DNA of 64,000 nt. It comes from Streptomyces sp. ML-6. Its GTDB lineage: Bacteria; Actinomycetota; Actinomycetes; Streptomycetales; Streptomycetaceae. Positions 10,051 to 53,083 of the stretch are shown piece by piece. Under the pieces are notes generated by a model, which saw nothing but the letters and a program-made list of their open reading frames with translations, searched no databases and was not told where the DNA came from. The stretch lies in the NCBI RefSeq assembly GCF_030116705.1, contig NZ_JAOTIK010000001.1, positions 558,001 to 622,000 of the forward strand, given 5' to 3'. Each line of letters starts with the position of its first letter. Within the stretch, counting starts at the first letter, position 1. Both the position numbers and the translations under genes were made by a program.

Positions 10051-10054
10051 GGGT

Positions 10055-16464: not shown

Positions 16465-18438
16465 TCAGCGACGGGCCAGGAAGCGCATGTACTCGACCCG
16501 GTCGAAGGGATTTCCATCGGTCCGGGCACGGCTCGGCAGGGGGACACCGGCAACTGCCTTGTCACCATCCGCGTAGGACGTCCACAACGCCATGCCGTTC
16601 GTCAGCGGCATGAGCCGACGGCGTACCGCGGCCAGCGTGCGGAGCGGGAGCCGGCCCTCGATCACCCACAGGTCGGTCGCCTCCCGGCACGCCTCGACCT
16701 CGGCCTCGTGTCTGTTCAGATGGTTGATCACCGGCCCGAAGTGCTCCTCGGGGATTTCCACCCAGAACCGGTGCATGGGCTCGTACACCTCGGTTCCGGC
16801 CTCCGCGAGCGCCTGCATCAGGACGTGGGGGGTCACGTCCCGGAAGTGCCCCGCGGCCGAGTAGGGGCGGGCCCAGAACCCGCAGTGGGTCATCGTGACC
16901 CGGATGTCGACGACCCGCCAGCCGTGACACCCCTGGGACAGTGCGGACTGCACCGTCTCTTCGACGGCGTCGTGGAACGCGGCGGGCAGGGCTCCCGATT
17001 CGACCTCGCGCCGATAGCTGAAGCCCGGGCCCGGCTCCACTCTCAGTCCGACCGTCGCCAAGAAACCGTTCCCGATGATCTCCACGGCGGAACCGCTTCC
17101 CGCGGGGCGCTCCAGGTAGACGACGTCCGGCACCTCGAACCCGGCCCTGATGCCGAAATCGTCCGCCAACGTCTGCTGGAGCACTTCCTGCTGCACATGG
17201 CCGTAGAGGTGGACGACCGCTTCCCCTCCGGGTCCCAGGTCCGCGCGGATCATCGGATCCTGCTCGGCCAGGGCGAGCAACGCCGCGCGCAGTGCCGGTG
17301 CGTTCCTGGGGTCCGTCGGCCGCACCACGACCTCGAGGCCGGGCGGCGGGAACTGACGACTCCTCGACGGGGCCGCTCCGCTCCCCAGCCGGTCTCCGAT
17401 CCGCAGCTCCGCCGGGCCTCCGACCATCGCGATGTGGCCGGCGGTGAGCCGGGGGTGTTCTTCGCCATGGGGCGCGACCACATGGAGATTCCGGACCCGG
17501 TCGCGGAAGAAGGAGCCGTCGGCCTGGTGGACGTCCACCTGCTGCCGCTCGGTGAGCGTCCCGCCGAAGCAGCGGACGAGGGCGTTCTTCTCCCCGCGCT
17601 CGTTCCGTCCGATGGCGAACACCGAGGCGGACAGCTCCGGTCCGTGCGACGGCGGCTCCAGCAGCTCCCGGAGCACCGTCCGCAGTCCGTCCATGCCCGC
17701 ACCGGTGATGGAGGAACCGAACACGACCGGCTGAACCAGGCCGGCGTTCGTCTGGGCCCGTAAGACTCCGAGCAGTTCCGTACGGTCGGGACATCTGTCG
17801 GCCACCAGCTGCTCCAGCAGCTTCTCGTCGTTCTCCGCGAGGCGTTCGGCCCACTGCCGCCGGACGTCGGCGCTGGACAGCTCCGCCGGGGCGAAGCCCG
17901 CCGCGGGTGTTCCCGGGGCGACGGGGACTCCCATCGCCAGCGGCAACAGGCCGAGTTTGCCGGAGAGTTCGTCCAGTACTTCCAGGCCCGCCGCGCCGAC
18001 ACAGTCGAGCTTGTTGACGAACACGACCACCGGGAGCCGGAGCCGTTCGACGACGCGGTACAACGCCCGGGTCTGCGGCTGCACTCCTTCGGGGGCCGAG
18101 ATCACCAGGATCACCGCGTCCACAGCCATCAGACCGCGCTCGACCTCGGCAACGAAGTCGGCGTGTCCGGGAGTGTCGACGAGGTTGAACTGGCGGTCCT
18201 TGTCCCGGAAGCACGCCACAGCCGCCCGGACGGTGATCCCCCGGGCGCGCTCGATCGCGTCCGAGTCGGTCTGTGTCGTTCCTTCGTCGACACTGCCGAT
18301 GTGCCGAATGGCACCGCACTCGAACAGCAGCCGCTCCGTCAGGCTCGTCTTTCCCGCGTCGACATGCGCGAGCACACCCAGGTTGAGCACACTGCCGATG
18401 TCGCCCCGCGTGTCGTCCCGCTCGTCAGGCCTCGTCAC
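16465..18438 (-). CDS. Ribosomal protection protein, TetM/OtrA type (likely self-resistance)
   Basis: Translational GTPase of 657 residues related to EF-G that, in its family, removes tetracycline from the 30S ribosome. GTPase motifs are complete: G1 AHVDAGKTSL (residues 24-33), G2 region RARGITV, G3 DTPGHADF, G4 NKLD. The C-terminal EF-G domain IV-like part contains MTHCGFWARPYSAAGHFRDVTPHVLMQALAEAGTEVYEP, aligned with the TetM segment ending PADFR...LEPY, and IEGRLPLRTLAAVRRRLMPLTNGMA. Length fits TetM/OtrA. The GTG start overlaps the stop of the FAD gene (GTGA), so the two are translationally coupled. Codon 226 is TTA, so expression may need the bldA leucyl-tRNA. As last gene of the unit it is the probable self-resistance determinant. 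True EF-G is about 700 residues and would sit in a ribosomal protein operon. Confidence 0.9.
   Translation of the reverse strand: MTRPDERDDTRGDIGSVLNLGVLAHVDAGKTSLTERLLFECGAIRHIGSVDEGTTQTDSDAIERARGITVRAAVACFRDKDRQFNLVDTPGHADFVAEVERGLMAVDAVILVISAPEGVQPQTRALYRVVERLRLPVVVFVNKLDCVGAAGLEVLDELSGKLGLLPLAMGVPVAPGTPAAGFAPAELSSADVRRQWAERLAENDEKLLEQLVADRCPDRTELLGVLRAQTNAGLVQPVVFGSSITGAGMDGLRTVLRELLEPPSHGPELSASVFAIGRNERGEKNALVRCFGGTLTERQQVDVHQADGSFFRDRVRNLHVVAPHGEEHPRLTAGHIAMVGGPAELRIGDRLGSGAAPSRSRQFPPPGLEVVVRPTDPRNAPALRAALLALAEQDPMIRADLGPGGEAVVHLYGHVQQEVLQQTLADDFGIRAGFEVPDVVYLERPAGSGSAVEIIGNGFLATVGLRVEPGPGFSYRREVESGALPAAFHDAVEETVQSALSQGCHGWRVVDIRVTMTHCGFWARPYSAAGHFRDVTPHVLMQALAEAGTEVYEPMHRFWVEIPEEHFGPVINHLNRHEAEVEACREATDLWVIEGRLPLRTLAAVRRRLMPLTNGMALWTSYADGDKAVAGVPLPSRARTDGNPFDRVEYMRFLARR
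17761..17763 (-). other. TTA (bldA) codon in the ribosomal protection gene
   Basis: Codon 226 (Leu, in GVLRAQTNAG) is TTA, which in Streptomyces depends on the developmentally regulated bldA tRNA. I found only two TTA codons in the cluster genes: this one and one in the activator. Confidence 0.9.
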
Positions 18439-19649
18439 ACCAACCGCCCCGACATCGATTCACCCCTGGGCCCCGTGGTGTCCGGTTCGACGCACACCAG
18501 TTCCTCGGCCGATCTCATGCCGGCCAGCACACCGAGATAAACCTGGGTGAGGGTCGCGGAGTTCCCGATTTCCTCGTGAAGGGCGAGACGGCTGTCCGTC
18601 ACCCCGAGACCTGCAGCGGTGAGCGTCGCCGCGTACGACTCCCTGAGCAGCCCGTTCCGGCGCCGCGCAAATTCGGCGAGTGCGGTGTCCACCGACCGGT
18701 CCGATCCGCACCGCCCGGCCAGCACCTGCCCCAGAAGTTCGGCCTGCAGGAACGCGTCGGTGATCCCACGGGCGGTGATGCTGTCCTTGTGATGTCCCGC
18801 ATCGCCCACCAGCGCCCACCCCTTGCCGGACGCCTCCCGGAAGAAGTTCTGCTGGTCCCCGGTGCCGGTCAGGCGCAGTACCGGCTCGGTCTGCCGCAAC
18901 CGGTCGCCGAGGTCCGGTGCGAGCGCGTCGATCATCTCCAGATGAAACGCCATGGGGTCGGTGCGCGCATGCTCGAACATGGACTGGGGGGCGAAGGTCG
19001 AGACGAGCGAGACACCGTCATGGGTCGGGATGACGCCCACGTAGGCGTCCTGGGCCTCCACCAGCCGCACCTGGTCCCCGCCGATGTGCCACCCGGAGTA
19101 GTAGACGCAGGTCCGGCGCGCGTCCTCGGTCGTCGTCCGTGCGCCGCACAGCCGGGCAAGGGCCGAACGCATGCCGTCCGCCCCCACGACGACGCGGCTC
19201 GTCTCCTGCGTCACGCCCCCCTCGGGGCCGCGCAGCAGCACACCGGACACCCGCCCGTCGCGCCGCACCACATCGACCAGTTTCGTCCGGGCCCTGAACT
19301 CGGCCCCGGCGTCCCGGGCCGCGTCGACCACGACTTGGTCGAGCACCCGGCGGCGCGGCGCGACGGCGAAGTCGATGCCCTCGTACGCGGGAAGCGGGCC
19401 GGAAACCGTCACGGGCCCGACCGTATGGGACAGACCGACCAGACGGGGGCACCCGGTCTCCAGCAGTGGGTCCAGGATCCCCCAGTCGCGCAGCCTGGCC
19501 ACACCCGGCTGATGGATGTAGAGCGTGGACATCGTGTCCGAGGGGAAACGTGCCTGATCGACCATCAGGACACGCTGCCCGGATTCGGCCAGCAGCAGGG
19601 CGGTGGCCGCACCGGCGCAGCGGGCACCGATCACTACGACGTCATACAT
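18435..19649 (-). CDS. FAD-dependent oxidoreductase / group A monooxygenase-like
   Basis: Flavoprotein of 404 residues. The N-terminal dinucleotide motif is VVVIGARCAGAATALLLAESG (GxxCxG variant of GxGxxG). The second FAD motif is GWALVGDAGHHKDSITARGITDAFLQAELL (GD motif), and VVVGADGMRSALARLCG is the DG motif of aromatic hydroxylases and geranylgeranyl-reductase-like enzymes. It may hydroxylate or oxidise the product or a carrier-bound intermediate; the substrate cannot be read. It is coupled by overlap to the ribosomal protection gene. A 144-base gap with a hairpin separates it from the thioesterase upstream, so these two genes may form their own small operon. Confidence 0.85.
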   Translation of the reverse strand: MYDVVVIGARCAGAATALLLAESGQRVLMVDQARFPSDTMSTLYIHQPGVARLRDWGILDPLLETGCPRLVGLSHTVGPVTVSGPLPAYEGIDFAVAPRRRVLDQVVVDAARDAGAEFRARTKLVDVVRRDGRVSGVLLRGPEGGVTQETSRVVVGADGMRSALARLCGARTTTEDARRTCVYYSGWHIGGDQVRLVEAQDAYVGVIPTHDGVSLVSTFAPQSMFEHARTDPMAFHLEMIDALAPDLGDRLRQTEPVLRLTGTGDQQNFFREASGKGWALVGDAGHHKDSITARGITDAFLQAELLGQVLAGRCGSDRSVDTALAEFARRRNGLLRESYAATLTAAGLGVTDSRLALHEEIGNSATLTQVYLGVLAGMRSAEELVCVEPDTTGPRGESMSGRLV

Positions 19650-19748
19650 GGGCAGTGCCGTTCTCCATCGGTTTCTCCGGCACCGTGGTCACGGCGTCCG
19701 CGGTTCGTGTTCCGTGCCGTTGGCCGGGGCCGGAACGAACGGGGGCCT

Positions 19749-19778
19749 GCCGCCGCGGTGAGGCCGGCCCGCGGCGGC
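19749..19778. terminator. GC-rich hairpin between thioesterase and FAD gene
   Basis: A 10-base perfect stem (GCCGCCGCGG / CCGCGGCGGC) with a 10-base loop lies just after the thioesterase stop. It could end the NRPS transcript or only attenuate it before the FAD and resistance genes. Confidence 0.55.
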
Positions 19779-19793: not shown

Positions 19794-20540
19794 TCAGTGC
19801 CATCCCGACCGGGAGGTGATGACATCGGCGACATCGTCGGTGTGGTCGAGCAACAGGTTGTGGCCACCCGCCAGCCGGTGGAGTTCGAATCCGCCTTCGG
19901 TGAACCCGGACCACGCCCCGAAGTCCCGCTCGTCGATCGCCGAGTCGGCCGCTCCGAGGATTCCCACGATGGCGGGCGTGATCACAGCGCCCTCGGCACA
20001 CCGATGGGACTCGATCGCCTCGTAGTCGGCACGCAGCGCGGGAACGAGCAGTTCGAGCAGTTCGTCGTCCTGGAGGACGAAGTCGGGCACGTACCCGTCG
20101 GCGGCGACCCGTTTCATGAACGGGCCGAGGGGATAGCGCCACACCCCGTTCCGGGGAATCCGGTCGGGAGGCTCGTGGGCGGACAGGAACAGCGCGCGCA
20201 CGTCGGCCTCCCGGAGGCGGCGCACGATCTCGAAGGCCACGATGGCCCCCGAGCAGTGTCCGTAGACGGTGATGCCACGCCCCCGGGCGTGAGCGGAGAT
20301 CGCTTCGGCGGCTTGATCCGCGATCACCTGCACGTCGCGCAGGGGTTTCTCGTGCAGTCTGGCCTCCCGCGCCGGCAGCCTCACCGCGACGGGGAGGGCG
20401 AACCGCCCGATCCGGCGGCACAGATCGCGGACGGCCGCCGCACCGGCACCGGCGTGCGGCACCGCGTAGAACACCTCGTTCCGGGCGGGCGGGGACGTGG
20501 ACATCTCCACCAGCCACGGGCTGCGCTCCATCCTGGTCAT
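19794..20540 (-). CDS. Type II thioesterase with Cys at the nucleophile position
   Basis: Free-standing alpha/beta-hydrolase thioesterase of the GrsT/RifR type, 248 residues; such enzymes unload stalled or wrong acyl groups from NRPS/PKS carrier proteins. Family features are VPHAGAGAAAVRDLCRRI (oxyanion region), VAVRLPAREARL, the nucleophile elbow VYGHCSGAIVAFE, a later Asp (GAADSAIDE) and His (LAGGHNLLLD). The elbow reads GHCSG where the family has GHSxG, so the nucleophile (Cys96) is cysteine rather than serine. The codon is TGC and unambiguous. A third thioesterase of the cluster shares this change. It overlaps the adenylation gene upstream by ATGA. Confidence 0.88.
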   Translation of the reverse strand: MTRMERSPWLVEMSTSPPARNEVFYAVPHAGAGAAAVRDLCRRIGRFALPVAVRLPAREARLHEKPLRDVQVIADQAAEAISAHARGRGITVYGHCSGAIVAFEIVRRLREADVRALFLSAHEPPDRIPRNGVWRYPLGPFMKRVAADGYVPDFVLQDDELLELLVPALRADYEAIESHRCAEGAVITPAIVGILGAADSAIDERDFGAWSGFTEGGFELHRLAGGHNLLLDHTDDVADVITSRSGWH

Positions 20541-22858
20541 GAACGTCCTTTCCGGCCTGCGACCAGTTCCGCCAGCGCGGCCCGGTCCACTTTCCCCACA
20601 GGGGTCAACGGGAACGAGGACACCTCGACGAGATCGTCGGGCACCAGGTGGCCGGGAAGCCTGCGTGCCGCGAAGTCACGCAACGCCCGCTCGCCGACGC
20701 CATCGGCGAGGTAGAACGCGGCAAGCCGTTTCCCACCCGGGCGTGGCACCGCCAGCACCACCGCGTCCCGTACACCGTCGAACCGGATCAGGACGCTCCG
20801 CACCTCCCCCAGTTCGATCCGGTGGCCGCGGATCTTGACCTGGTCGTCGAGCCGTCCGAGGAACTCGATCAGGCCGTTCCGCCACCACCTGGCCCGGTCC
20901 CCGGTCCGGTACATCCTCGCGCCCGGCTCCGGCGACCAGGGGTCGGGCAGGAACTTGGAGGCGGTCAGCGCGGGGTCCCCCGCGTAGCCCAGGGCCACGC
21001 ATTCGCCTCCGATGTAGAGGTCGCCGGGCACATCCACCGGGCACTGCGACAGTTCCTCGTCCAGGACGTAGTAGCGCGCGTTGTCCATGGGAACGCCGTA
21101 GGGCACGCTCGGCCAGGCCGGGTCGATCTCGTCGGCCAAGAAGTGGTTCGACCAGACCGTGCACTCCGTCGCCCCTCCCAGCGCCACCACGTCCGCGCCG
21201 GGAAACGCGGCCCTGACCTCGCCCGGCAGTGTCAGCGGTATCCAGTCCCCGCTCAGCAGCACCAGCCGCAGCGGGGCGCCGTCGAGGTCGTCGCGGAGCT
21301 TGAGGAACGGCGTGATCATGCCCAGCATCGCCGGGGCGGAGTTCCACATCGTGATCCGCTCCCCGGCCAGGAGGTCGAGGAGCACATCCGGTTCGCGCAG
21401 CTCCGCGTCGCCCGCCACCCGTACGTAGCCACCGGCGGCGAGGGTGCCGAACACATCGAACACGGACAGGTCGAAACAGAACGAGGAGACCGCGAGCACC
21501 CGGTCATGGGGCCCGACCCCGTACACGCGCCGCAACCACGTCATGAGGTTCACCAGGGGGCGGTGCTGCACCGTGACGCCCTTGGGTGCTCCCGTGGAGC
21601 CGGAGGTGAAGATGACATAGGCGACCGAGTCCGGTGACGGCGGGGTTCTCGGGGGCCGTGCCGGTTGGGCGTCGATGTCCGCTCCCGACCAGAACGTCCG
21701 CGTCCGGGCCGGGGATTCGGGGTCGTCCACGGTGAGTTCGACATCGAAGCGGTGGCGCAGCGCGCCCCTCAGCACCTCTGCGTCCCTGTTGTGCACGGCC
21801 ACCCGGGACACCGCCGGAAGCACCTCGGCGATGTTCCGGAAAGCGGTGCGCGGCAGCGCCAGGCCCGCGTGGTCCTCCTCGTCGGGATCGATCAGGTCGC
21901 CCAGCACCATCCGGCCGCCCGGCAGCAGCAGCCCGGCTGCCTGCTCCAGGACGCTGTAGAGGTACTCGACGTCGGGAAAGAACTGGACGACGCTCGACAG
22001 CACCACGGTGTCGAACCGGCCGCTCACCAACTCACCGACCCGGTGGGCCGGGCCGACGACACCTTCCAGCCACGGGCGGTCCTCGCCGTGGCGGGCCAGC
22101 ACTCTTCCCACCGATGCCGGGGAGATGTCCATGGCGACATATCTGCCGACGGCTCCGGACAGCTCGTCCACGAGCTCGCCGGAGCCGCAGCCGATCTCCA
22201 GGACCGACGGGCGCCCGGGGGCACCGGCGCAGACCAGTCGTGCCACGTGCTGCCGGTACGCCTCCAGGTCGGAGAGTTCGTAAGCGACCGTGCCGCGGGT
22301 GTTGAACCCGGCGGCACGGAGGCGGTCCGGGTCCTCCGCTATGTAGTCGAACAGATCGACCAGCGGCGGTTCGTCGATCGCGGCCCCGGCCGTGTACTCA
22401 CCGGGCATTCCCGGGCAGACCACGCCGCGGACCGAGGCCACGGTGGCGGCAAGGCGCTGTGCGGCCCGTTGCTGTCCTGGTCCCGAGACCATGCACATGA
22501 CGTCGAGTTCGCTCAGCAGCCGCTCCGCCCGTATTCGCGGCCATTGGGGGTCGATCGGCACATAAGCCGCCCCCGTCTTCAGGACGGCGACCAGGGCGAC
22601 CACCGCCCAGACGTCACGTCCGCTGTACAGCGCCACGTACTGCCCGGGGCCGGCCCCGACGGAGGACAGCAGTGTGGCCAGGCGGTCGGACGCGGTGTCG
22701 AGTTCGCGGTACGTGAGCGTCCGCCCGTGGGCGTCGCCGGCCGCCGGGGCACCGGGGTTCCGGTCGACTGCCGCACGGATCAGGTCGGGGACGGTGACAT
22801 GGTCGGGGAACGGCGCGAAGGTCTCGTTCCATTTCGGGTCCGGGCGCATCATCGACAC
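20537..22858 (-). CDS. Interrupted NRPS adenylation domain A-MT-A, predicted to activate Cys
   Basis: Stand-alone adenylation enzyme of 773 residues with an embedded methyltransferase and no carrier domain. The A domain starts normally (LTYRELDTASDRLA, YVPIDPQWP), breaks after motif a2 near residue 150, holds a class I SAM methyltransferase (VLEIGCGSGE about 219-228; VVLSSVVQFFPDVEYL), then resumes at a3 (YVIFTSGSTGAPKG, about 414-427), GECVALGYAG, YRTGD and LTPVGKVDR. My manual specificity code is D-L-F-N-L-S-L-V-W-K, close to the cysteine code DLYNLSLIWK. Interrupted A domains are known from kutzneride and thiocoraline pathways; a2-a3 insertions have been linked to side-chain methylation, so S-methyl-Cys is possible. 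GTG or the ATG six bases on can start it; both overlap the carrier gene, its likely partner. Confidence 0.87.
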   Translation of the reverse strand: MSMMRPDPKWNETFAPFPDHVTVPDLIRAAVDRNPGAPAAGDAHGRTLTYRELDTASDRLATLLSSVGAGPGQYVALYSGRDVWAVVALVAVLKTGAAYVPIDPQWPRIRAERLLSELDVMCMVSGPGQQRAAQRLAATVASVRGVVCPGMPGEYTAGAAIDEPPLVDLFDYIAEDPDRLRAAGFNTRGTVAYELSDLEAYRQHVARLVCAGAPGRPSVLEIGCGSGELVDELSGAVGRYVAMDISPASVGRVLARHGEDRPWLEGVVGPAHRVGELVSGRFDTVVLSSVVQFFPDVEYLYSVLEQAAGLLLPGGRMVLGDLIDPDEEDHAGLALPRTAFRNIAEVLPAVSRVAVHNRDAEVLRGALRHRFDVELTVDDPESPARTRTFWSGADIDAQPARPPRTPPSPDSVAYVIFTSGSTGAPKGVTVQHRPLVNLMTWLRRVYGVGPHDRVLAVSSFCFDLSVFDVFGTLAAGGYVRVAGDAELREPDVLLDLLAGERITMWNSAPAMLGMITPFLKLRDDLDGAPLRLVLLSGDWIPLTLPGEVRAAFPGADVVALGGATECTVWSNHFLADEIDPAWPSVPYGVPMDNARYYVLDEELSQCPVDVPGDLYIGGECVALGYAGDPALTASKFLPDPWSPEPGARMYRTGDRARWWRNGLIEFLGRLDDQVKIRGHRIELGEVRSVLIRFDGVRDAVVLAVPRPGGKRLAAFYLADGVGERALRDFAARRLPGHLVPDDLVEVSSFPLTPVGKVDRAALAELVAGRKGRS

Positions 22859-23112
22859 CTGCTCCCCGCCTGTTCCGCGACAGCCCGCGCGATGCCGTGG
22901 ACGGTGGGAGTGGCGAAGAACAGACGCAGGGGCAGGCGAACCCCCACCTGCTTCGACAGGTCGGCCATGACCTTCGCCACCAGGAAGGAGTTGCCGCCGA
23001 CGGCGAAGAAGTCGGAGTCGGGGTCGAAGTCCGAGTGTTCGAGGACTGTCTCCCAGGCGGAGTGCACCATCGACGTCAGTTCACCGGTGTCCGGTTCCAC
23101 TTGCTCGGTCAT
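22849..23112 (-). CDS. Free-standing peptidyl carrier protein (T domain)
   Basis: 87-residue carrier protein. The phosphopantetheine site is in FFAVGGNSFLVAKVMADL (GGNS, Ser modified), and SKQVGVRLPLRLFFATPTVHGIARAV completes the four-helix fold. The ATG overlaps the stop of the methyltransferase gene (TGATG) and its own stop lies inside the first codons of the A-MT-A gene. The tight packing suggests it is the carrier loaded by that enzyme and acted on by the free methyltransferase. Confidence 0.9.
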   Translation of the reverse strand: MTEQVEPDTGELTSMVHSAWETVLEHSDFDPDSDFFAVGGNSFLVAKVMADLSKQVGVRLPLRLFFATPTVHGIARAVAEQAGSRCR

Positions 23113-44334: not shown

Positions 44335-44727
44335 GTCATACCCCGCATCCTCTTGCCCCACTTCGGCTCGGCAACAGAGCTCCAAGGTCACGCACTCCGC
44401 CCATGGTGCCAACGAACGCGCGCCACGACTTGAACACTGTTCGATCGGGCGGTCGTTCAGCTCATGCCCTTCCGGTGGGGACCGGTGCGCTCTCCGCACC
44501 CCCATGGCGACGGCCGGTCATCCGCCGTGCGGCCGGCGACGGACCGGACACGACCGTCCCGCGCCCGGCCGGGCCAGTGCGTCCGGTGCCGTTCAAGTGC
44601 CCGTGTCGTCCAGTTGAACAGGTGTGTCTCGCCCGGGCCGGCAGCTCGTAGTCTGACGGAACGGTGATGTTGGACGCACTCCCGCGGTTCGGTCGACCCG
44701 GGAACCGGAAAGCCAGGGGGAATCGCA
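44335..44727. promoter_or_regulatory. Divergent promoter region of units B and C
   Basis: 393 bases between two divergent biosynthetic operons. It holds the StrR/NovG-like box described separately. A small palindrome GAACACTGTTC lies near 44433. No other gene was seen. Clear -35/-10 pairs could not be assigned. Confidence 0.6.
44591..44619. promoter_or_regulatory. StrR/NovG-type activator binding site
   Basis: GTTCAAGTG, 11 bases, CAGTTGAAC. The published NovG/StrR consensus is GTTCRACTG-N11-CRGTYGAAC; this site matches all but one base, including the exact spacing. It lies 109 bases before the unit C start and 257 before unit B, so one site could activate both. The cluster's own StrR-type regulator is the natural ligand. 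Confidence 0.85.
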
Positions 44728-45514: not shown

Positions 45515-48500
45515 GTGCCTTCGTCCTCAAGACTCTCTTCGGTAGCGGCCGGCCCACCGGACCGCACCTCCCCCGGTCCGCACACCGGTACGGTGCACGG
45601 GATGTTCGCGCGGCAGGCGGTCCTGCGCCCGGACGCCCCGGCCGTCCGCTCCACGGAAGGGGAGCAACTGACCTACGCCGAGCTGCACCACCGGGCGTGC
45701 GGGCTCGCCTCGCGTCTGCGGGCCGCCGGCGTGGGCCCGGAGCAGTACGTCGTCGTCCGCATGCGACGCGATCCCGCCTTGGTCGCGACCCTCCTCGGCA
45801 TCATGCAGACGGGAGCCGCCTACATCGCCGTGGACTGGAACTGGCCACCTGCACGGGTGCAGCACATCATCGACACCGCCGGGGCCCATCTGCTGACCGG
45901 GCCGGGAGAGGAGTCCCTCTTCCCGCTGCTGCCGGCCGCGGGCCGGAGCCGGCTGGCACCGGACTTCTCCTCGTCCGGCACAGACACGGACTCCCTGCCC
46001 GAGGTCGCAGGTACCGCGCCCTGCACCGTCTTCTTCACTTCGGGAAGCACGGGCGAGCCCAAGGGCTCGGTGACCGCACATCGAGCGATCGTGCACCGCT
46101 TCGCCGATGTCCCCTACGCGGACTTCGGGCCCGGCCGGGTGATTCTTCAGGCGGCGCCCGTCTGCTGGGACGCCATGACGCTCGAACTGTGGTCGGTGCT
46201 CATGAACGGCGGAACCTCGCTGCTGCTGGACCAGGACCGCGTCGTCACACCCCAGTTGCTGCGCGAGCTCGTCAGGACCGACGGCCTGGACACGCTCTGG
46301 CTCACCGCCGCCCTGTTCAACGCCGTCGTCGACGACGATCCCGGGTGCTTCTCCGGCATGCGGCAAGTGCTCACCGGCGGCGAGAAGCTTTCCCCACCGC
46401 ACATTCGCCGATTCCGGGAGGTGAACCCCGAGCCCAGGCTCGTCAACGGATACGGCCCCGTGGAGACCGCTGTCTTCGCCACCACACGGGACATCGCGGA
46501 CGACGACGCCGAGCGGTACGGTCAGATCCCGCTCGGCACGCCTCTGCCGCACACGTCGGTCCACGTGCTCACCCCGCAGGGCGTCCCCAGTCCCCCCGGG
46601 GAGCCGGGCGAGATCTGCATCGGCGGGGCGGGAACCTCCCTCGGATACCTGGGGCGGCCCGAGCTGACGCGCACGCACTTCGTCACACTGGCTTCGGGAG
46701 AACGGGTCTACCGCTCCGGAGACGTCGGCCGGTGGCATCGTGACGGTGTCCTCCTCTACGGGGGGCGCCAGGACCGGCAGGTGAAGATCCGCGGACAGCG
46801 TGTGGAGCCGGAGGAACTGGAACACTGCCTCGAAGGCATGGAGCGACTGCGGCGCGCGATCGTCACCGTCATCCGCGACCCGGGCGGGACGCCGACAGGT
46901 CTGGCGGCCCACTGCCTGGCCCCGGACGGCGTCTCCGTCGACGACGTGCACGCCGTCTGCGCGCGTGAACTGCCCCCTTACATGTGGCCGCGCCAGATCC
47001 TCTTCCATGACGCCTTCCCGCTGACCGGCACCGGCAAAGCGGATGTGCGGGCCCTTGAGCGCATGACCACCGCCGCGCGGGCCCGCCCGGTGCCGGCGGC
47101 GGCGGACGAGGGTTCCTGCGAGGGCCCGGTGGCGGCGTGTCTGGCCGAGGCTCGGGAGCTGCTGGGCTGCGAACTCGCTCCGGACGACGACCTCGTCGCG
47201 CTCGGCGCAGATTCCATTCTCACCATGCGCCTGGTCAGCCGGCTGGCCAGGCGGCACATGTTGCGTATTCCGTTCCGCGCCGTCCAGGAGTGCCGGACTC
47301 CGCGGGCGATGGCGGCACGGGCCGAGCCGGTCGCCGCGGTGGTTCCGGCCGATGCGCACACCACCGAAGTCACCGACAGCCGTCTGGACCTCTGGCTGCG
47401 CGAGCAGTTCAGTCCCGGGGATCCGGCCCAGCTCATCGTGTCCGCATTCGAGACCCGTCCCGAGGTGGACCGCCGGGCACTGCGCACGGCACTCGACTCC
47501 CTCACGGCACGTCACCCGGCTCTGCGGACCGGCTATCGCTTCCGTGGCTCCCGCCTGCACACGGAGCCGCTGTCCGAGGCGGACATCCCGCTCAGGACCA
47601 CACCCGCCGCTCCGGGAAGCGCGGACGGCGCGAACCGGTGTCCCCCCGAGTGGCTCGCGCCGTTCGACCTGGCGCACGACGCACCGGCGCGCTGCTTCGT
47701 CACACCGGTCCCCGGCGGATCGAAGGTGACGCTGGTCATCCATCACATCGCCTACGACGGCTGGTCCGAGCACGTCTTCCTCTCCGAGATCGGTGCCGCC
47801 TACGACGCGGCCCGCAACGGGGCCGGGGCCCCCTCCGCGACGGTGCGCACCGGCCACCGGCCGCCGCCGTCGGAGGCGGAACGCGAACGGGCACGCGCCC
47901 ACTGGCGTCGTCGCCTCGACGGGACCAGGCCGCTCGCCCTGCCTCCGGGCGACCCCGCGGCCGGACACCGGCTCGAGGAACAACGTCTGGAGGCATCGGT
48001 CACCGACGTCCAGCGGCTCCGGGAGATGACCGGTCGGGACCCGCACCTGGCCGCCCTGACCTGGTACGGCCTGGCCCTCCATCGGTTCACCGGCAGCGAC
48101 CGCTTCACCATCGGGTCGTACTTCGCGGGACGCGAGGATGCCGACGAGAACGCGATCGGCTACTTCGTCCGGCCGGTGCCCGTGACGCTCGACTTCCGGG
48201 GGAACCCGTCGCCCGGCGTGGTCGCCGCCGGGGCCCAACGGCACTGGGCGGATGCCATTGCCCAGCCCCCACTCGCTCTCGACGGCCTCTCGGATCTCGC
48301 GCCGCGCCCTCCGCGCTACGGGCTGCCCCCCGTCTTCCAGGCCGCCCTGGCCTTCCAGAACACACCGGAGAGCAGACTCCTCCTGGCCGGGCACGAAGTG
48401 CGGAGGATCGATGTTCCGCAGCCCGCGGCACCGATGCCGTTGGCGTTGCAGATCTGGCCGCGGCCGGACGGAAGCTGGGACGTACGTCTGCAGTGCGACC

Positions 48501-48577
48501 CGACGCTCGTCGGCCGTTCGGTGCTGCCCGACCTCGCCGACCGCCTCATCGACGAACTCCGCGCATCCCAACCATGA
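45515..48577 (+). CDS. NRPS protein A-T-C
   Basis: 1020 residues. The A domain (about 30-520) has a2 YIAVDWNWPP, a3 VFFTSGSTGEPKGS, a4 VCWDAMTLELW, a5 NGYGPVETA, a7 YRSGDVGRW, a8 QVKIRGQRVEPEE and a10 TGTGKAD. The T domain has ALGADSILTM (Ser near 566). The C-terminal condensation domain (about 625-1015) has intact HHIAYDG near 743. The manual code D-A-L-L-L-G-G-V-F-K is closest to branched hydrophobic codes such as Val (DALWIGGTFK); this is low-confidence. The C domain at the C-terminus implies it passes its aminoacyl or peptidyl group to a carrier on another protein. GTG start after AAGGAGA. Confidence 0.88.
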   Translation: MPSSSRLSSVAAGPPDRTSPGPHTGTVHGMFARQAVLRPDAPAVRSTEGEQLTYAELHHRACGLASRLRAAGVGPEQYVVVRMRRDPALVATLLGIMQTGAAYIAVDWNWPPARVQHIIDTAGAHLLTGPGEESLFPLLPAAGRSRLAPDFSSSGTDTDSLPEVAGTAPCTVFFTSGSTGEPKGSVTAHRAIVHRFADVPYADFGPGRVILQAAPVCWDAMTLELWSVLMNGGTSLLLDQDRVVTPQLLRELVRTDGLDTLWLTAALFNAVVDDDPGCFSGMRQVLTGGEKLSPPHIRRFREVNPEPRLVNGYGPVETAVFATTRDIADDDAERYGQIPLGTPLPHTSVHVLTPQGVPSPPGEPGEICIGGAGTSLGYLGRPELTRTHFVTLASGERVYRSGDVGRWHRDGVLLYGGRQDRQVKIRGQRVEPEELEHCLEGMERLRRAIVTVIRDPGGTPTGLAAHCLAPDGVSVDDVHAVCARELPPYMWPRQILFHDAFPLTGTGKADVRALERMTTAARARPVPAAADEGSCEGPVAACLAEARELLGCELAPDDDLVALGADSILTMRLVSRLARRHMLRIPFRAVQECRTPRAMAARAEPVAAVVPADAHTTEVTDSRLDLWLREQFSPGDPAQLIVSAFETRPEVDRRALRTALDSLTARHPALRTGYRFRGSRLHTEPLSEADIPLRTTPAAPGSADGANRCPPEWLAPFDLAHDAPARCFVTPVPGGSKVTLVIHHIAYDGWSEHVFLSEIGAAYDAARNGAGAPSATVRTGHRPPPSEAERERARAHWRRRLDGTRPLALPPGDPAAGHRLEEQRLEASVTDVQRLREMTGRDPHLAALTWYGLALHRFTGSDRFTIGSYFAGREDADENAIGYFVRPVPVTLDFRGNPSPGVVAAGAQRHWADAIAQPPLALDGLSDLAPRPPRYGLPPVFQAALAFQNTPESRLLLAGHEVRRIDVPQPAAPMPLALQIWPRPDGSWDVRLQCDPTLVGRSVLPDLADRLIDELRASQP

Positions 48578-48602: not shown

Positions 48603-50468
48603 ATGGCCAGCGACTCCCCCGCCGCAGCACATCGGCTCGACACCCTCCTGACCGCACGACTGCTCGAAGATCCCGGCCGTCCCGCGCTCGTCGACGGCGA
48701 CCGGACGCTGAGTGCGGGCAGCCTCCACACCCGGGCGGCTGCGGTCGCTCATGCCCTGCGCAGAGCGGGGGTGCGCCCCGGCGACCGGGTGGCCGTACGC
48801 ATGGAGCGGTCGGCGGAGTCCGTCATCGCCCTGCTCGCCGTGGTTCTTTCCGGCGGAGCGCATGTGGCCATCGACGTCAACGATCCCGTGGAACGGGTCG
48901 CGTACATGCTGGAGGACTGCCGGCCCCGGGTGGTGCTGACCGGGGAAGCCCATGCCGACGGGCTGGGCGACGTCCGCGGCACGCGGGTGCTCACCATCGA
49001 AGAGGCCGAGCGGGAAGACCCGGCCCGTTCCGGTCCTCCGCTCCGGCCCGTCGGGGATCTCACCGACGAGCCGGCGGTCGCGATCTACACCTCCGGTTCC
49101 ACGGGGCGCCCGAAGGCCTCGCTGATCAGTCACCGTGCCCTCACGAGGCGGCTGGCCTCCCTCCAGGGAACCCATCCCCTGGGCCCGGACGACCGGATGA
49201 TCCATCACACGGCCTACAGCTTCGACATGTTCCTCATCGAGGTGTACTGGCCGCTGCTGAACGGGTGCACCGTGGTGCTCGCCGAATCCGGTCGCCGGCG
49301 TGACGGCGAGTACCTGGCGGAGCTGATCCGGCGCCACTCCGTCACCACGCTCTACTGCGTGGTGTCACTGCTGGAGATCTTCCTGGAGGCCCAGCCGCCG
49401 GAACGGCGTTTCCCCACCCTGCGCCAGGTCCTCACCGGCGGTGAACCGCTGAGCCCCGAGCTCGTCCGCGAGTTCCACGGGCGGTGCGCGGCGACGCTCA
49501 CCAACCTCTACGGTCCGAGCGAGTGCACCATCTACTGCACTGCCTGGCTGTGCCCCCGGGATCCCGACCCCGACACGGTACTCATCGGGCAGGCCGTGGA
49601 GGAGACCCCGCTGTGGATCCTCGACGAGCAGGGCAGACCGGTGCCCGAGGGGGAACCGGGCGAGCTGTACATCGGCGGCACCGGGCTGGCCCTCGGATAC
49701 CTCAACCGGCCCGAACTGACGGAGGAACGCTTCCTGCCCGACCACCTCGGTGGTTCGGGAGGCCGCCTCTACCGCTCGGGGGACCTGGTCCGCTCCGTCC
49801 CCGGAAGGGGGCTGGAGTTCCTCGGCCGGGTCGATGAGCAGGTGAAGGTCAGGGGATACCGGATCGAACTCGGCGAGATCGAGGTGACGGCACGGCGTTC
49901 TCCCCTGGTCCGGCATGCCGCCGTCGTCGCGCGGGGGACGGGAAACGCGTCGCAGCTCGTGGCCTTCGTGGTCCCCCGGGAAGACTCCGTGGAGGATCCT
50001 GCGGAGTTCACCCGCCGGTTGCGCGAGGAAATGGGTGCCACGCTTCCCGCCTACATGGTGCCGACGGCCATCTCGCTGGTCGAAGGGCTGCCCCTGACGA
50101 AGAACGGCAAGCTGGACCGTCAGGAGCTGCTGGAACGGGCCGGGTCCGTGACGCCCGCCACCACCGCGCGCAGCGAACCGCCCGTCGGCGCCCTGGAGGC
50201 CACGGTCGCGCGGATCTGGTCCGATGTGCTCGAGGTACCCGCGATCGGGCGGACCGACGACTTCTTCGACGTCGGCGGCACATCGCTCAAGGTGATTCAG
50301 GTGGCACGGGGGTTGCGGGACGAAATCGGGGTGGACGTACCCGTACAGCTGATCTTCCAGCAGCCGACGCTGGACGGTTTCTCCGCGCTGCTGCGGGAAC
50401 ACCTCGGTTCGGCCGGCGCGGGAAACGACTTCGCGGCGGCCCCCGCGGGAACGAACGAGCAGCCGTGA
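48603..50468 (+). CDS. NRPS protein A-T
   Basis: 621-residue loading-type protein. Motifs: a2 HVAIDVNDP, a3 IYTSGSTGRPKAS, a4 YSFDMFLIEVYWPLLNG, a5 NLYGPSECT, a7 YRSGDLVRS, a8 QVKVRGYRIELGE, a10 KNGKLDRQ. The carrier has FFDVGGTSLKVIQVARGL (Ser near 560). The manual code D-M-I-C-L-G-L-I-Y-K keeps Asp235, so an alpha-amino group is expected, but the rest matches no code I know. It has no acidic residue for a basic side chain. The next gene overlaps its stop (GTGA), tying it to the aminomutase. It may start the chain or feed a C domain in trans. Confidence 0.88.
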   Translation: MASDSPAAAHRLDTLLTARLLEDPGRPALVDGDRTLSAGSLHTRAAAVAHALRRAGVRPGDRVAVRMERSAESVIALLAVVLSGGAHVAIDVNDPVERVAYMLEDCRPRVVLTGEAHADGLGDVRGTRVLTIEEAEREDPARSGPPLRPVGDLTDEPAVAIYTSGSTGRPKASLISHRALTRRLASLQGTHPLGPDDRMIHHTAYSFDMFLIEVYWPLLNGCTVVLAESGRRRDGEYLAELIRRHSVTTLYCVVSLLEIFLEAQPPERRFPTLRQVLTGGEPLSPELVREFHGRCAATLTNLYGPSECTIYCTAWLCPRDPDPDTVLIGQAVEETPLWILDEQGRPVPEGEPGELYIGGTGLALGYLNRPELTEERFLPDHLGGSGGRLYRSGDLVRSVPGRGLEFLGRVDEQVKVRGYRIELGEIEVTARRSPLVRHAAVVARGTGNASQLVAFVVPREDSVEDPAEFTRRLREEMGATLPAYMVPTAISLVEGLPLTKNGKLDRQELLERAGSVTPATTARSEPPVGALEATVARIWSDVLEVPAIGRTDDFFDVGGTSLKVIQVARGLRDEIGVDVPVQLIFQQPTLDGFSALLREHLGSAGAGNDFAAAPAGTNEQP

Positions 50469-51844
50469 ACCGGCGCATCGCGCAGCCGTACACATACCGC
50501 GGCACGCCCTTGGTGGAACCGGACTGGCGCCGGTTCCCCGGTTGGGGCAAGGTGACCCGGGCCGAATGGGAATCGCCGAACTGGCAGCGCAGGAACAGCG
50601 TGCGCAATCCCCGGCAGCTCCGCTCGGTGCTGGGTGACACCGTGGACGACTCGTTCTACACGGATCTCGACCGCGACCGTCTCCAGCGAGCCACGATGTC
50701 TCTGCTGCTCACACCCCAGATGCTGAACACCATGGCCGCGCGCGTCCCCGCCACGGGCCCCGGGAGTCTCACCGACGCCTTCTACGAAGATCCGGTCCGG
50801 CGTTACATGCTCCCCGTCTTCTCGGACCGCCGCGCGGACTGGCCCTCCCATCCCAGGGCCCGGCGCGACTCGCTGCACGAGCAGGAGATGTGGGCCGTCG
50901 AGGGGCTGACCCACCGGTACCCGACGAAGGTCCTGGCGGAGCTCCTCTCCACCTGCCCGCAGTACTGCGGGCACTGCACGCGGATGGACCTGGTGGGAGC
51001 CTCCACGCCCCAGGTGGACAAGCGCAGGTTCCGGACGGGGTCGCGTCCGCGTATGGAGACCATGCTCGGCTACCTGCGGCAGCACCCCGAGGTGCGGGAT
51101 GTCGTGGTGTCCGGCGGGGATGTCGCCAATATCGCCTGGCCACGGCTGGAGTGGTTCGTCGAACAGCTCATCGCGATCCCCGGCATCAGGGACATCCGGC
51201 TCGCTTCCAAGGCGTTGGTGGGTCTCCCCCAGTACTGGCTGAGCGGTGAAGTGCTGTCCGGGCTGGAGCGGCTCGCCAAGATCGCGGCCGGCCGCGGTGT
51301 GCAGATCGCGCTGCACACCCACGCCAACGCGGCCGCCTCGGTCACACCGCTCGTGGCGCAGGCAGCACGCGCCGTACTGGCTACGGGAATTCGGGACGTG
51401 CGCAATCAAGGGGTTCTGATGCGCGGCGTCAACGGGACCGCCGAGGAGGTCCTGGACCTCTGCTTCGCGTTGCTGGACGAGGCCGGCATCATGCCCTACT
51501 ACTTCTACCAGTGCGACATGGTTCCCTGCAGCGAGCACTGGAGGATGGCTCTCTGGGAAGCCCGCGACGTGCAGGACCGCATCATGGGATACCTGCCCGG
51601 ATTCGCCACGCCCCGAATCGTGTGTGACGTTCCGTACGTCGGAAAGCGTTGGGTGCACCAGGCGATCGGTTACGACCGTGTCAGCGGGATTTCCCACTGG
51701 GCGATGAACCACCACATAGCCGTGGAGGGGGGTTGCGCCTTCCCGAAGGAGGAACTCCACGAGTTCTACGATCCGATCCACACGCTGCCGACGGAAGGGC
51801 AGCTGTGGTGGGAGAAGCACGACGACGCGGTCCACACAAGTTGA
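50465..51844 (+). CDS. Lysine 2,3-aminomutase-family radical SAM enzyme
   Basis: 459-residue radical SAM and PLP-type aminomutase. The cluster motif is CPQYCGHC (Cys164, 168, 171; CxxxCxxC). The SAM-binding VVVSGGDVANI follows, then VGLPQYWLSGEVLSGLERLA and IALHTHANAAASVTP. The two Asp residues that hold the lysine epsilon-amine in lysine 2,3-aminomutase appear conserved: Asp351 in FYQCDM and Asp388 in IVCDVPY. This favours lysine (or a similar basic amino acid) over glutamate. The usual PGGGGK segment is changed to PYVGKR, so PLP or substrate contacts differ. Expected product is beta-lysine or a relative. It overlaps the A-T stop and precedes the ArgG-like gene. Confidence 0.87.
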   Translation: MNRRIAQPYTYRGTPLVEPDWRRFPGWGKVTRAEWESPNWQRRNSVRNPRQLRSVLGDTVDDSFYTDLDRDRLQRATMSLLLTPQMLNTMAARVPATGPGSLTDAFYEDPVRRYMLPVFSDRRADWPSHPRARRDSLHEQEMWAVEGLTHRYPTKVLAELLSTCPQYCGHCTRMDLVGASTPQVDKRRFRTGSRPRMETMLGYLRQHPEVRDVVVSGGDVANIAWPRLEWFVEQLIAIPGIRDIRLASKALVGLPQYWLSGEVLSGLERLAKIAAGRGVQIALHTHANAAASVTPLVAQAARAVLATGIRDVRNQGVLMRGVNGTAEEVLDLCFALLDEAGIMPYYFYQCDMVPCSEHWRMALWEARDVQDRIMGYLPGFATPRIVCDVPYVGKRWVHQAIGYDRVSGISHWAMNHHIAVEGGCAFPKEELHEFYDPIHTLPTEGQLWWEKHDDAVHTS

Positions 51845-51865: not shown

Positions 51866-53083
51866 ATGGTCAACCAGGCGAGAATACGCTCCTTCCGTGA
51901 CCTGGGCACGGAAACCGAGGCGCTGGACTTCCCGGTGGTCACACTCTTCAGCGGGGGCCTGGACAGCTCGTACCTGCTGTACCGCCTGCATGCGATCGGT
52001 TCTCCGGAGGTGCACGCCGTCAGTGTGGACATCGGCGACGAGGAGACCACCGACGAGAAGCAGCGGATCGCCGACCGATTCGGCGTCAAACTGCACATCG
52101 TCGACGGCCGGGACCAGTTCGCCGAAGAATACCTGAGACCGGCCATAGCCGCTCAGTCCGTCTATCTCGGCACGCACCCGATCAGCTCGTCGCTCAGCCG
52201 GCCCCTGATCGCAAGGATAGCCATGAAGGTGGCCGAGGAGATCGGAGCCCGCACGCTGCTCCATACGGCCAATCGATCGCAGAACACGCTTCGTCGGCTC
52301 AACGGCGCGCTCGGCCTGCTCGGATTCCCGGGAAATTTCGGAAGTCCCTACGAGCTCGAACCCGTGGACCGGGACCGCAAGATCGAGGAACTGGACCGTG
52401 CTGGGCTTCATGGTCTGTCCGGAAGATCGGTGAGCATCGACTCGAATCTGTGGTGCCGGGAGTTCGAGTCCGGCAGTCTCGACGACCCGGAGCACCACCC
52501 CGTGCCGGAGGACCTCTACCGCTGGACCCGTTCCGGACGGCCCGCCCCGTCCCCCGAGACCGTCCGCATCGGGTTCAGGGCCGGCACCCCCACCGAGGTC
52601 AACGGTCGCGAACTTCCGCTGGCGGAACTGATAACCCGGCTGAACCACCTCGTGGGAGCGCACGGAATCGGCCGCTTCAGCGGACTGGAGCATCTCGCGC
52701 AGGGCGAAAAGGTGCTCGAAATACGTGAGATGCCGGCCGCTTTCCTGCTGATGCGCACCGCGCGCCATCTGGAAACAGCCGTCCTGGAGGCCGAGACCAT
52801 CCGGGAAAAGATGCACATGGAGCAGATCTGGACCCGCGAAGCGCTGGAAGGGCGCTGGTTCGGCGAGCTGCGCCGGGCCGGCCAGAGTTTCATCGAGAGC
52901 TGCGCCGCGCGGGTCACCGGGGAAGTCACCTGGAGGCTGTCCTCCGGAACCGCCGAGACCTGTGGAATCCTGGCCGAGTCCCCGCGTTACATCAGGAGCC
53001 GGGAGGCCTGGGAGCGCAGCTGCGTGGAATCCGAGGTCGACGGTCACCGGAGCCCGTCGGGGCCGGTCCCGATCGTCCACTGA
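51866..53083 (+). CDS. Argininosuccinate synthase-like enzyme (ArgG paralogue)
   Basis: 405-residue PP-loop ligase. ArgG family features: P-loop LFSGGLDSS (27-35), LSRPLIARIAMKVAEEIGA, SIDSNLWCREFESGSLDDP (canonical SIDxNLxGRxxExGxLEDP), EDLYRWT, VRIGFRAGTPTEVNG, LNHLVGAHGIGRF and SFIESCAARVTGEVTWRL. The ArgG loop that binds aspartate, HGxTGKGND, is HTANRSQNT (133-141), losing the Thr and Asp. It should activate a ureido, carboxyl or similar oxygen by adenylation and join a nucleophile that may not be aspartate. It is last in unit C. No ArgH-like lyase is in the window. Start ATG after GGAGG. Confidence 0.88.
   Translation: MVNQARIRSFRDLGTETEALDFPVVTLFSGGLDSSYLLYRLHAIGSPEVHAVSVDIGDEETTDEKQRIADRFGVKLHIVDGRDQFAEEYLRPAIAAQSVYLGTHPISSSLSRPLIARIAMKVAEEIGARTLLHTANRSQNTLRRLNGALGLLGFPGNFGSPYELEPVDRDRKIEELDRAGLHGLSGRSVSIDSNLWCREFESGSLDDPEHHPVPEDLYRWTRSGRPAPSPETVRIGFRAGTPTEVNGRELPLAELITRLNHLVGAHGIGRFSGLEHLAQGEKVLEIREMPAAFLLMRTARHLETAVLEAETIREKMHMEQIWTREALEGRWFGELRRAGQSFIESCAARVTGEVTWRLSSGTAETCGILAESPRYIRSREAWERSCVESEVDGHRSPSGPVPIVH

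Follow-up and report, generated by a model that had tools for sequence, protein, structure and literature searches.

One enzyme at the locus analysed here is related to nitrile synthetases, of which ArtA, presumably a fungal enzyme of auranthine biosynthesis, is the reference, as described in the text of one paper (PMC13060819) and in PDB titles. The paper gives Q146, S197 and D199 as the residues in contact with the amide, and presents auranthine as the sole peptide with a nitrile. NRPS pathways were, however, already known to yield nitriles, since, according to the accessible part of PMC7966384, cystobactamids contain beta-cyanoalanine and a homologous domain occurs in albicidin biosynthesis. 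For methylation within adenylation domains, the accessible part of PMC11355689 describes TioN and MarQ, both interrupted between motifs a2 and a3, as S-methylating, and two thalassospiramide proteins with a2-a3 insertions as N-methylating, so that an insertion at this place need not mean S-methylation.

The window, i.e., the whole stretch of 64,000 nucleotides that was analysed, contains a 20-gene cluster of 36.6 kb at 16465-53083, as annotated with Pfam and NCBIfam models and refined starts. A twin with 20 of the 20 genes in identical order and orientation, at 64-79% amino-acid identity, lies in a second genome (G504, apparently Streptomyces sp. NBC_00433). The original prediction of a hybrid NRPS/PKS cluster with unusual protein cuts holds: the C-T-E, T-C-A-T, A-T-C, A-T, KS-ACP and KS-KR-ACP proteins and the free domains were all found where it had placed them, as was every other part it named. 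With only a little more confidence than doubt, we read the genes as a complete trans-AT PKS/NRPS cluster for an undescribed ribosome-targeting antibiotic; the predicted molecule is a peptide-polyketide that contains beta-lysine and dimethyl-Cys as well as a nitrile. The features are:

16465..18438, minus strand: TetM/OtrA-like translational GTPase, presumed ribosomal protection and self-resistance (NCBIfam)
18435..19649, minus: FAD-dependent oxidoreductase, monooxygenase or geranylgeranyl-reductase-like (Pfam FAD_binding_3)
19794..20540, minus: TE2, type II thioesterase, Cys replacing the nucleophile Ser, GHCSG (Pfam Thioesterase)
20537..22858, minus: A(M)A, adenylation domain that stands alone and is split by an inserted methyltransferase, layout as in TioN/MarQ, code DLFNLSLVWK (Pfam)
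22849..23097, minus: free peptidyl carrier protein (Pfam PP-binding, 50 bits; 75% to twin)
23112..24485, minus: free methyltransferase like the N-methylating domain inserted in TioS (5wmm_A; 64% to twin)
24485..27520, minus: C-T-E NRPS protein without A domain (Condensation in two stretches, PP-binding)
27579..29774, minus: KS-ACP PKS protein without AT or KR (ketoacyl-synt, PP-binding; KS Cys conserved)
29771..30643, minus: TE1 thioesterase, Ser nucleophile, GHSLG (Pfam Thioesterase)
31695..32834, plus: ParB/HTH-type (StrR-like) regulator (HTH_23, parB_part; 64% to twin)
33084..34193, minus: cytochrome P450 with heme Cys (Pfam p450; HYCLG in window and twin)
34181..35479, minus: free (trans) acyltransferase, FabD-like (Acyl_transf_1; fabD 231 bits, below the cut-off of 261; GHSLGE in both copies)
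35476..39366, minus: KS-KR-ACP PKS protein with C-terminal docking-like helix (domain profile, alignment)
39363..40718, minus: MFS exporter, TetA(P)/Tet(40) type (244 bits with the TetA(P) model, whose cut-off is 750)
40870..44505, minus: T-C-A-T NRPS protein, A code DVGEIGGVEK, basic-residue type (code by eye)
44591..44619, no strand: palindrome GTTCAA-N17-TTGAAC in the divergent promoter between T-C-A-T and TE3
44728..45492, plus: TE3, type II thioesterase, Cys nucleophile, GHCSG (domain profile)
45515..48577, plus: A-T-C NRPS protein, A code DALLLGGVFK (code by eye)
48603..50468, plus: A-T NRPS protein, A code DMIYLGLIYK (code by eye)
50465..51844, plus: KamA-type lysine 2,3-aminomutase homolog (LAM), predicted beta-lysine supply (TIGR00238, AblA, 2a5h)
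51866..53083, plus: argG-related protein, predicted to act as a nitrile synthetase on an amide (NF038212, 9lei/9leh matches)

Boundaries, resistance genes and distribution

The 36.6 kb are a sharply bounded insertion between genes that are adjacent in relatives. The flanking genes lie less than 400 bp apart in 14 of the 24 same-genus relatives sampled and 37.2 kb apart here, and homology to the empty sites ends at 16395 or earlier and restarts at 53509-53549, which makes the predicted limits of 16465 and 53083 almost exact. The 20 cluster genes have a GC3 of 0.858, versus 0.921 for 16 gene calls outside (Mann-Whitney p = 2.3e-5), and four window flank genes (TerD, GT2, DUF6643 and AAA) have no match at E 1e-8 in 60 kb of G504. 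We read the cluster as complete and probably acquired horizontally. A small open reading frame at 32740-33087 (minus strand) was discarded as a gene, having neither a Pfam match nor a match in G504.

A ribosomal-protection-type gene had been expected within the cluster, and the GTPase at its left end is of this kind, scoring 617 bits with the Otr(A) model (cut-off 900) and 572 bits with tet_protect (cut-off 775); its ortholog in the twin is 73% identical. Because this GTPase and a TetA(P)-like pump are both in the cluster, a target in the 30S A site is suggested. The two genes could instead be resistance cargo against the tetracyclines of others, uninformative about the target of the product; a TetA(P)-type pump in the same cluster fits this explanation, as does the fact that GTPase homologs are common in actinomycetes among the matches listed. 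We think it unlikely, however, since both genes overlap a biosynthetic gene by 4 bp and keep their positions in the twin, and since no second full-length GTPase of this kind turned up in the genome (two other matches span only residues ~10-176) and the GTPase comes from a small separate group. Specifically, it groups with a few relatives at 62-82% identity, apart from proteins named Otr(A) at ~47-49%, among 120 matches listed, a list that is incomplete in that the NBC_00433 and JNUCC 64 GTPases are missing and the gene is not shown in every sister assembly. Of 394 class-level genomes sampled, the only one with close relatives is the source genome itself.

With 20 genes keeping order and orientation in the uncharacterised twin, the gene content is more than chance, and the implied uniqueness of the cluster has to be given up: it is not confined to the source genome. 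Close LAM and argG-like proteins also occur, apparently together, in three more assemblies (JNUCC 64, NPDC056405 and a 39,405-bp contig). In overlapping samples of 392, 296 and 199 genomes, none besides the source (G000) and G504 has a LAM above 70% identity, and a scan of genome contigs gave at least 80 LAM loci at 62-70%. As the original prediction had supposed, a search of literature texts revealed no characterised pathway that has these genes in this arrangement. The source strain might nonetheless be merely a new producer of an antibiotic whose cluster is already published or in MIBiG, given that the comparison rested on literature texts, without MIBiG, antiSMASH-DB and most subscription-journal papers. 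We judge this distinctly unlikely: among the matches listed, relatives of the cluster proteins bear only generic names, and two recent ribosome-targeting antibiotics that were considered, saskemycin (PMC12637814) and the E-site depsipeptide MKM (PMC13372681), have other clusters according to the accessible parts of their papers.

The argG-related protein and the lysine aminomutase

The enzyme previously called ArgG-like is present, but not as ArgG proper. It scores 557 bits with NF038212 (argG_rel, cut-off 425) and 198.6 bits with TIGR00032 (argG), below the cut-off of 268, and its best solved relatives are 9lei and 9leh, deposited as 'nitrile synthetase', at 338 bits (9lei across 381 residues) versus 148 for the best ArgG. 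The ArgG motif GxGNDQxRF has become RSQNTLRRLN, whereas the true ArgG of the source genome keeps GKGNDQVRF. The positions of ArtA Q146, S197 and D199 align to Q, S and D in the window protein and in 120 of its 120 best homologs. A homolog search gave 1014 matches, which may include true ArgG. Of the three ArtA residues only the Gln separates the nitrile side from ArgG: the genome's own ArgG has Gly there and shares the Ser and Asp. The enzyme probably forms a nitrile group. Among 394 genomes sampled from the taxonomic family, 30 have a member of the argG_rel family, and the signature SQN[ST]LRR, searched as a regular expression, is missing from 2 of 29 argG_rel loci (L118 and L120). If our reading is right, this signature, standing where ArgG has GxGNDQxRF, tells probable nitrile makers from ArgG proper and opens a large family to direct tests.

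The aminomutase scores 166 bits with TIGR00238 and 154 bits with the lysine model AblA, both below cut-off (525 for the AblA equivalog), and 126 bits with the arginine 2,3-aminomutase model. Its radical-SAM motif CxxxCxxC is present as CPQYCGHC. The single PDB match at E 0.001 is 2a5h, and the equivalents of D293 and D330, which we take to be the lysine-binding aspartates of 2a5h, are both kept. The protein shares 65% identity with a LAM encoded next to vioC/vioD on a plasmid, in a cluster of streptothricin-like type; the A domains there reach no more than 28-35% identity with those of the window, too distant as references for a beta-lysine code, and comparison with them gave no beta-lysine match for the window A domains.

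These two enzymes could also be read as making a guanidine product of blasticidin type, with the ArgG-like enzyme coupling a ureido or amide group to an amine such as aspartate (giving an amidine or guanidine) and the aminomutase acting on arginine. The superfamily, the PP-loop SGGLDS and the Ser and Asp contacts are indeed common to ArgG, and the arginine model does recognise the LAM. We consider this very doubtful, because the ArgG motif is lost, the Gln of ArtA recurs in 120 of the 120 best homologs, the lysine model outscores the arginine model with both aspartates retained, and no argininosuccinate lyase was identified among the 20 cluster genes by Pfam and NCBIfam.

Assembly line and regulation

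In A(M)A the AMP-binding domain is split around a methyltransferase at residues 220-318, inserted between a2 and a3, with A halves (22-124 and 396/408-767) that align to LgrA. All A codes were read by eye in GrsA numbering; on this reading, the A(M)A code is Cys-like. The best PDB match of the free methyltransferase is 5wmm_A, presumably TioS, at 114 bits over residues 41-408, with the next best at 24 bits. Together, the interrupted A domain and the TioS-like free methyltransferase probably yield N,S-dimethylcysteine.

Neither KS module carries an AT and a free AT is present, the arrangement of a trans-AT PKS. The predicted KS-KR-ACP domains are there, but they do not imply a hydroxyl: relative to EryKR1 the catalytic Tyr is Cys and the Lys is Arg, identically in the twin, so the KR is probably dead, and because both copies lack these residues both PKS modules should leave ketones. 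In C-T-E the C motif is HHIIFDG, and the E region has HHLIMEP and FETHGRE in the window, HHLIMEP being common to the twin; the usual E-domain motif is HHxxxD, and here it reads HHxxxEP. The GHCSG of TE2 also recurs in the twin, and the nearest PDB thioesterases are 6vap and RifR. A halogenase role for the FAD enzyme was rejected, since PDB halogenase matches are weak and the halogenase motif WxWxIP is absent from its sequence. T-C-A-T and KS-KR-ACP end in, and KS-KR-ACP and KS-ACP begin with, similar short docking-like helices (PF22746 match below cut-off), which suggests the order T-C-A-T to KS-KR-ACP to KS-ACP. The lost KR residues and degenerate E motif could be signs that the cluster is decaying or silent and yields no functional product. 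This is barely credible, as none of the 20 genes in the window has a broken reading frame and the twin, at 64-79% identity, shares the KR and HHLIMEP changes, which therefore seem to be settled traits of a pathway that is being maintained.

The predicted StrR-type activator exists as a ParB/HTH-type regulator gene, with a TTA codon at position 376, but the StrR label itself rests on weak domain matches (HTH_23 at 25.6 bits, barely above the cut-off of 24.6; parB_part at 17.9 bits, far below cut-off) and a conserved palindrome. No second exact copy of this palindrome occurs in the genome of 9.1 Mb, and G504 likewise has just one, in the same intergenic region. With up to two mismatches the window has 4 matches against 0.25 expected, the others (20812, 43161 and 63439) lying outside cluster promoters. 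The classic StrR consensus has GTTCGAC arms; it gave one match, at 41520 inside the T-C-A-T gene, and the conserved intergenic palindrome is preferred.

Proposed pathway and comparison with known systems

In the pathway we propose, KamA would convert lysine to beta-lysine, and the A-T-C, A-T and T-C-A-T proteins would assemble a short basic peptide, to which KS-(dead KR)-ACP and KS-ACP, served by the free AT, would add two malonate units to give a 1,3-dicarbonyl chain. A(M)A would activate and S-methylate cysteine on the free carrier, the free methyltransferase would N-methylate it, and C-T-E would add it. The argG-related enzyme, using ATP, may dehydrate a primary amide (an Asn/Gln side chain or a terminal amide) to the nitrile; the P450 and FAD enzymes would oxidise, and the Cys-nucleophile thioesterases would proofread or release. 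The product would bind the 30S A-site region, from which the GTPase would displace it, and the MFS protein would export it. The ParB/HTH regulator, acting at the palindrome, may switch the divergent operons.

If this is right, one pathway joins an ArgG-derived nitrile synthetase, a lysine aminomutase, split cysteine dimethylation and a ribosomal-protection gene, and because they share a pathway the chemistry and target of the antibiotic are predictable. A bolder reading, which we consider somewhat less likely than not, is that the product founds a class of its own among inhibitors of the ribosomal A site (with beta-lysine and N,S-dimethylcysteine, and with a nitrile that comes from a free synthetase of ArgG descent) and that the whole bacterial argG_rel family forms nitriles in many different pathways. 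If true, a family annotated as argininosuccinate synthase-related consists of overlooked nitrile-forming enzymes.

With the presumably fungal nitrile synthetase ArtA the window protein has in common the ArgG-derived fold, the SGGLDS PP-loop and the Q/S/D contacts, and, provided that 9lei is ArtA, the 338 bits over 381 residues; unlike ArtA, it is bacterial and sits inside an NRPS/PKS cluster. The AMDH domain of cystobactamid and albicidin biosynthesis (PMC7966384, accessible part) likewise has an ATP motif and makes a nitrile from an amide during NRPS biosynthesis, but, compared by description, it is an in-cis NRPS domain with SGGKD, unlike the free ArgG-type enzyme here. Thiocoraline TioN/TioS and maremycin MarQ have the same A-M-A split between a2 and a3, a Cys-like code and the TioS-type M domain, whereas here the N-methyltransferase is a separate protein and the carrier is free. 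The streptothricin-type cluster on the S. globosus plasmid (L084), source of the 65% identical LAM, has dissociated NRPS proteins too, but neither a PKS nor an argG-related gene is annotated in its 31 kb. OtrA and Tet(M) share EF-G domains I and IV and the C-terminal domain with the GTPase, Otr(A) being its best curated model, although the GTPase falls below the curated cut-offs and, unlike the OtrA/Tet(M) setting, the 20 cluster genes include no tetracycline-type aromatic PKS. The nearest system overall is the twin, which differs from the window cluster in its flanks and in amino-acid identity and has the same palindrome and the same changes in the KR, the thioesterases and the E region.

A cluster inserted at a site empty in relatives

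Genes were called by codon GC and then annotated with Pfam and NCBIfam profile searches. The window corresponds to C1:558001-622000 of the source genome, a high-GC actinomycete chromosome of 9.13 Mb in 5 contigs, and 20 of its genes, from 16465 to 53083, form four transcription blocks in which six pairs of adjacent genes overlap by 4 bp:

30643 to 16465, minus strand: TE1, KS-ACP, C-T-E, MT, T, A(M)A (a stand-alone adenylation protein interrupted by a methyltransferase), TE2, FAD enzyme, ribosomal-protection-like GTPase
31695-32834, plus strand: regulator
44505 to 33084, minus strand: T-C-A-T, MFS, KS-KR-ACP, AT, P450
44728 to 53083, plus strand: TE3, A-T-C, A-T, LAM (lysine 2,3-aminomutase homolog), argG-like

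The hybrid NRPS/PKS cluster of the original prediction is real: all 20 of its genes recur in the same order, at 64-79% identity, in a second genome (G504, taken as Streptomyces sp. NBC_00433). It is an orphan cluster, seemingly intact and of a known kind, that combines its parts in a new way; several of these parts are corrected below. The original prediction recognised no pathway with this combination, in agreement with our literature search, in which no cluster with this gene set was found, but novelty is provisional because the search left most subscription journals outside its coverage and did not include MIBiG.

The genes flanking the cluster in the window (TerD, GT2, DUF6643 and AAA) have no match in 60 kb of G504 around the twin. 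We surveyed the insertion site in 41 genomes including the source genome, 24 others from the same genus and 16 more distant, reading the gaps by eye. TerD and DUF6643 are divergently adjacent, 134-381 bp apart, in 14 of the 24 congeners, and lie 0.9-2.1 kb apart on one contig in three more (G005, G002, G021); in one (G017) they are on separate contigs, and in six (G004, G006, G008, G010, G012, G015) TerD had no match at threshold. Neither gene was found in any of the 16 more distant genomes. In the window, 37,221 bp separate the two genes. On the left, nucleotide homology to seven retrieved sites ends at 16335-16395; on the right, it restarts at 53509 or 53549. GC3 is 0.858 for the 20 cluster genes compared with 0.921 for the 16 gene calls outside. 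The cluster is a unit, and relatives have an empty site where it is inserted. Outside it, at 54578-57124, Pfam identifies a right-handed beta-helix fused to AAA and AAA_lid_6 domains.

Resistance, regulation and the polyketide part

The GTPase scores best against the NCBIfam model Otr(A) (617 bits, cut-off 900) and then tet_protect (572 bits, cut-off 775), below the cut-off in both cases. No second full-length copy was found in the source genome, where two other matches cover only about residues 10-176. Among 120 listed relatives, eight are 62-79% identical over nearly their full length and one is an 82% fragment (55% coverage); the remainder are at most 54% identical, with proteins named Otr(A) at about 47-49%. 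This list is incomplete, since it leaves out the NBC_00433 GTPase, part of the twin cluster, and also that of JNUCC 64. Two of the eight close relatives come from Streptosporangium (P0246 and P0247, 67-68%), and another is encoded on a 119,541-bp NPDC056405 contig together with LAM and argG-like proteins. With a gene of this type in the cluster, the product is predicted to target the ribosome.

An exact match to the palindrome GTTCAA-N17-TTGAAC occurs once in the source genome, at 44591-44619, and once in G504, in the equivalent intergenic region; we infer that the palindrome is bound by the regulator. TTA codons occur in the GTPase (16465-18438, codon 226), the regulator (codon 376) and two flank genes (7295-9970, codon 2; 53545-54072, codon 13), so that bldA dependence of these genes is possible.

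The active Cys is intact in both KS domains, and the AT is free and FabD-like. The KR keeps its GGTGxLG nucleotide motif, but since the catalytic Tyr column holds Cys and the Lys column Arg, in window and twin alike, reduction is not expected. TE1 has the motif GHSLG, while TE2 and TE3 have GHCSG in both the window and G504. Thioesterases with a Cys nucleophile are known to release products as lactones or lactams, so TE2 or TE3 may have a cyclising role.

Beta-lysine and methylated cysteine as candidate building blocks

The LAM is KamA-type, with 166 bits for TIGR00238 and 154 bits for AblA, both under cut-off. At E 0.001 it has a single PDB relative, 2a5h (lysine 2,3-aminomutase), and Asp is kept at both positions aligned to D293 and D330, which we take to hold the lysine epsilon-amine. 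The LAM of an S. globosus plasmid cluster (L084, with annotated vioC and vioD), which appears streptothricin-like from its gene content, is 65% identical to it, and that of a Streptomyces sp. SAT1 plasmid cluster (L083), which presumably resembles negamycin biosynthesis, is 64% identical. At 7027-20974 the latter groups the LAM with SidA-type monooxygenase, PGM1-like peptide ligase and class I tRNA-ligase-like genes. Among the matches listed, LAMs of 62-70% identity are widespread in actinobacteria, so the gene family is ordinary. A second LAM gene of the source genome lies on another contig (C2:831612-832937, 64% identical).

All A-domain codes were read by eye, using GrsA numbering. T-C-A-T has the basic-type code DVGEIGGVEK, the ornithine code being DVGEIGSIDK; A-T-C has DALLLGGVFK and A-T has DMIYLGLIYK. 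None of the three is assigned to beta-lysine with confidence, and T-C-A-T is the most likely to take it, by charge. The A(M)A code, DLFNLSLVWK in the window and DLFDLSLVWK in G504, is close to what we take to be the cysteine code, DLYNLSLIWK.

In A(M)A the methyltransferase (220-318) splits the N-terminal side of the A domain (22-124 and 396-767), an a2-a3 insertion like that of TioN and MarQ. These S-methylate according to PMC11355689, whose table also places two N-methylating thalassospiramide proteins in that class. The free MT matches 5wmm, which we take to be TioS, with 114 bits over residues 41-408 (next best 24). The free carrier directly before A(M)A recurs in two plasmid clusters (L168, 17645-20325; L174, 14663-17301), where the A(M)A is about 51% identical to that of the window. 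Taken together, the A(M)A layout, the cysteine-like code, the 5wmm-like MT and the adjacent carrier suggest that N,S-dimethylcysteine is supplied in trans to C-T-E.

The argG-like enzyme and a predicted nitrile

The argG-like protein passes NF038212 argG_rel (557 bits, cut-off 425) and fails TIGR00032 argG (199 bits, cut-off 268). In the PDB it matches 9lei and 9leh best (338 bits), two entries deposited under the name nitrile synthetase, with ArgG next (148). According to PMC13060819, ArtA and NitB catalyse only the ATP-dependent amide-to-nitrile step, which cites work on an argininosuccinate synthetase-like nitrile synthetase, and the ArtA crystal structure is solved, with amide contacts Q146, S197 and D199 taken from docking and mutation. 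9lei is probably ArtA, as an offset of 29 residues places these three positions on Q, S and D of its chain. Aligned to 9lei, the window protein carries Q, S and D at the equivalent positions, as do all of the best 120 homologs out of 1014 matches, the full 1014 perhaps including true ArgG. In the ArgG of the source genome these residues are G, S and D, and the motif GKGNDQVRF is present; the Gln is therefore the one residue that discriminates. Across 29 argG_rel loci (L108-L136), the signature HTAxxxQNxLRRxN is present in 27 (exceptions L118 and L120) and the ArgG motif in none. Given the below-cut-off score, the PDB relatives, the Gln and this missing motif, the enzyme, labelled ArgG-like in the original prediction, should not be called ArgG; by its closest solved relative, it would make a nitrile.

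Elsewhere, argG_rel genes neighbour a 2OG-Fe dioxygenase of PF10014 type, frequently together with an EamA/DMT exporter (L157, 8779-12026; L170, 9023-11937; L171, 9989-11971), and by protein clustering also at L158, L159 and L141. These arrangements come from genomes of the Streptomyces family and from plasmids of Rhizobium and Bradyrhizobium. Of 20 argG_rel loci retrieved, 4 contain the dioxygenase relative, one of them analysed with Pfam, and the pair may form a minimal route to a hydroxylated cyano-amino acid. Other neighbours are aconitase and isocitrate dehydrogenase-like genes (L150), a GCS2 glutamate-cysteine ligase (L153), an ATP-grasp protein (L155), and A-domain and glycosyltransferase genes (L147). 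Enzymes of this type may serve many different pathways.

Nitriles in NRPS products are already known: the AMDH domain of cystobactamid biosynthesis dehydrates carrier-bound Asn to beta-cyanoalanine, and albicidin biosynthesis has an AMDH homolog (PMC7966384). A free ArgG-type enzyme in a PKS/NRPS pathway would be new.
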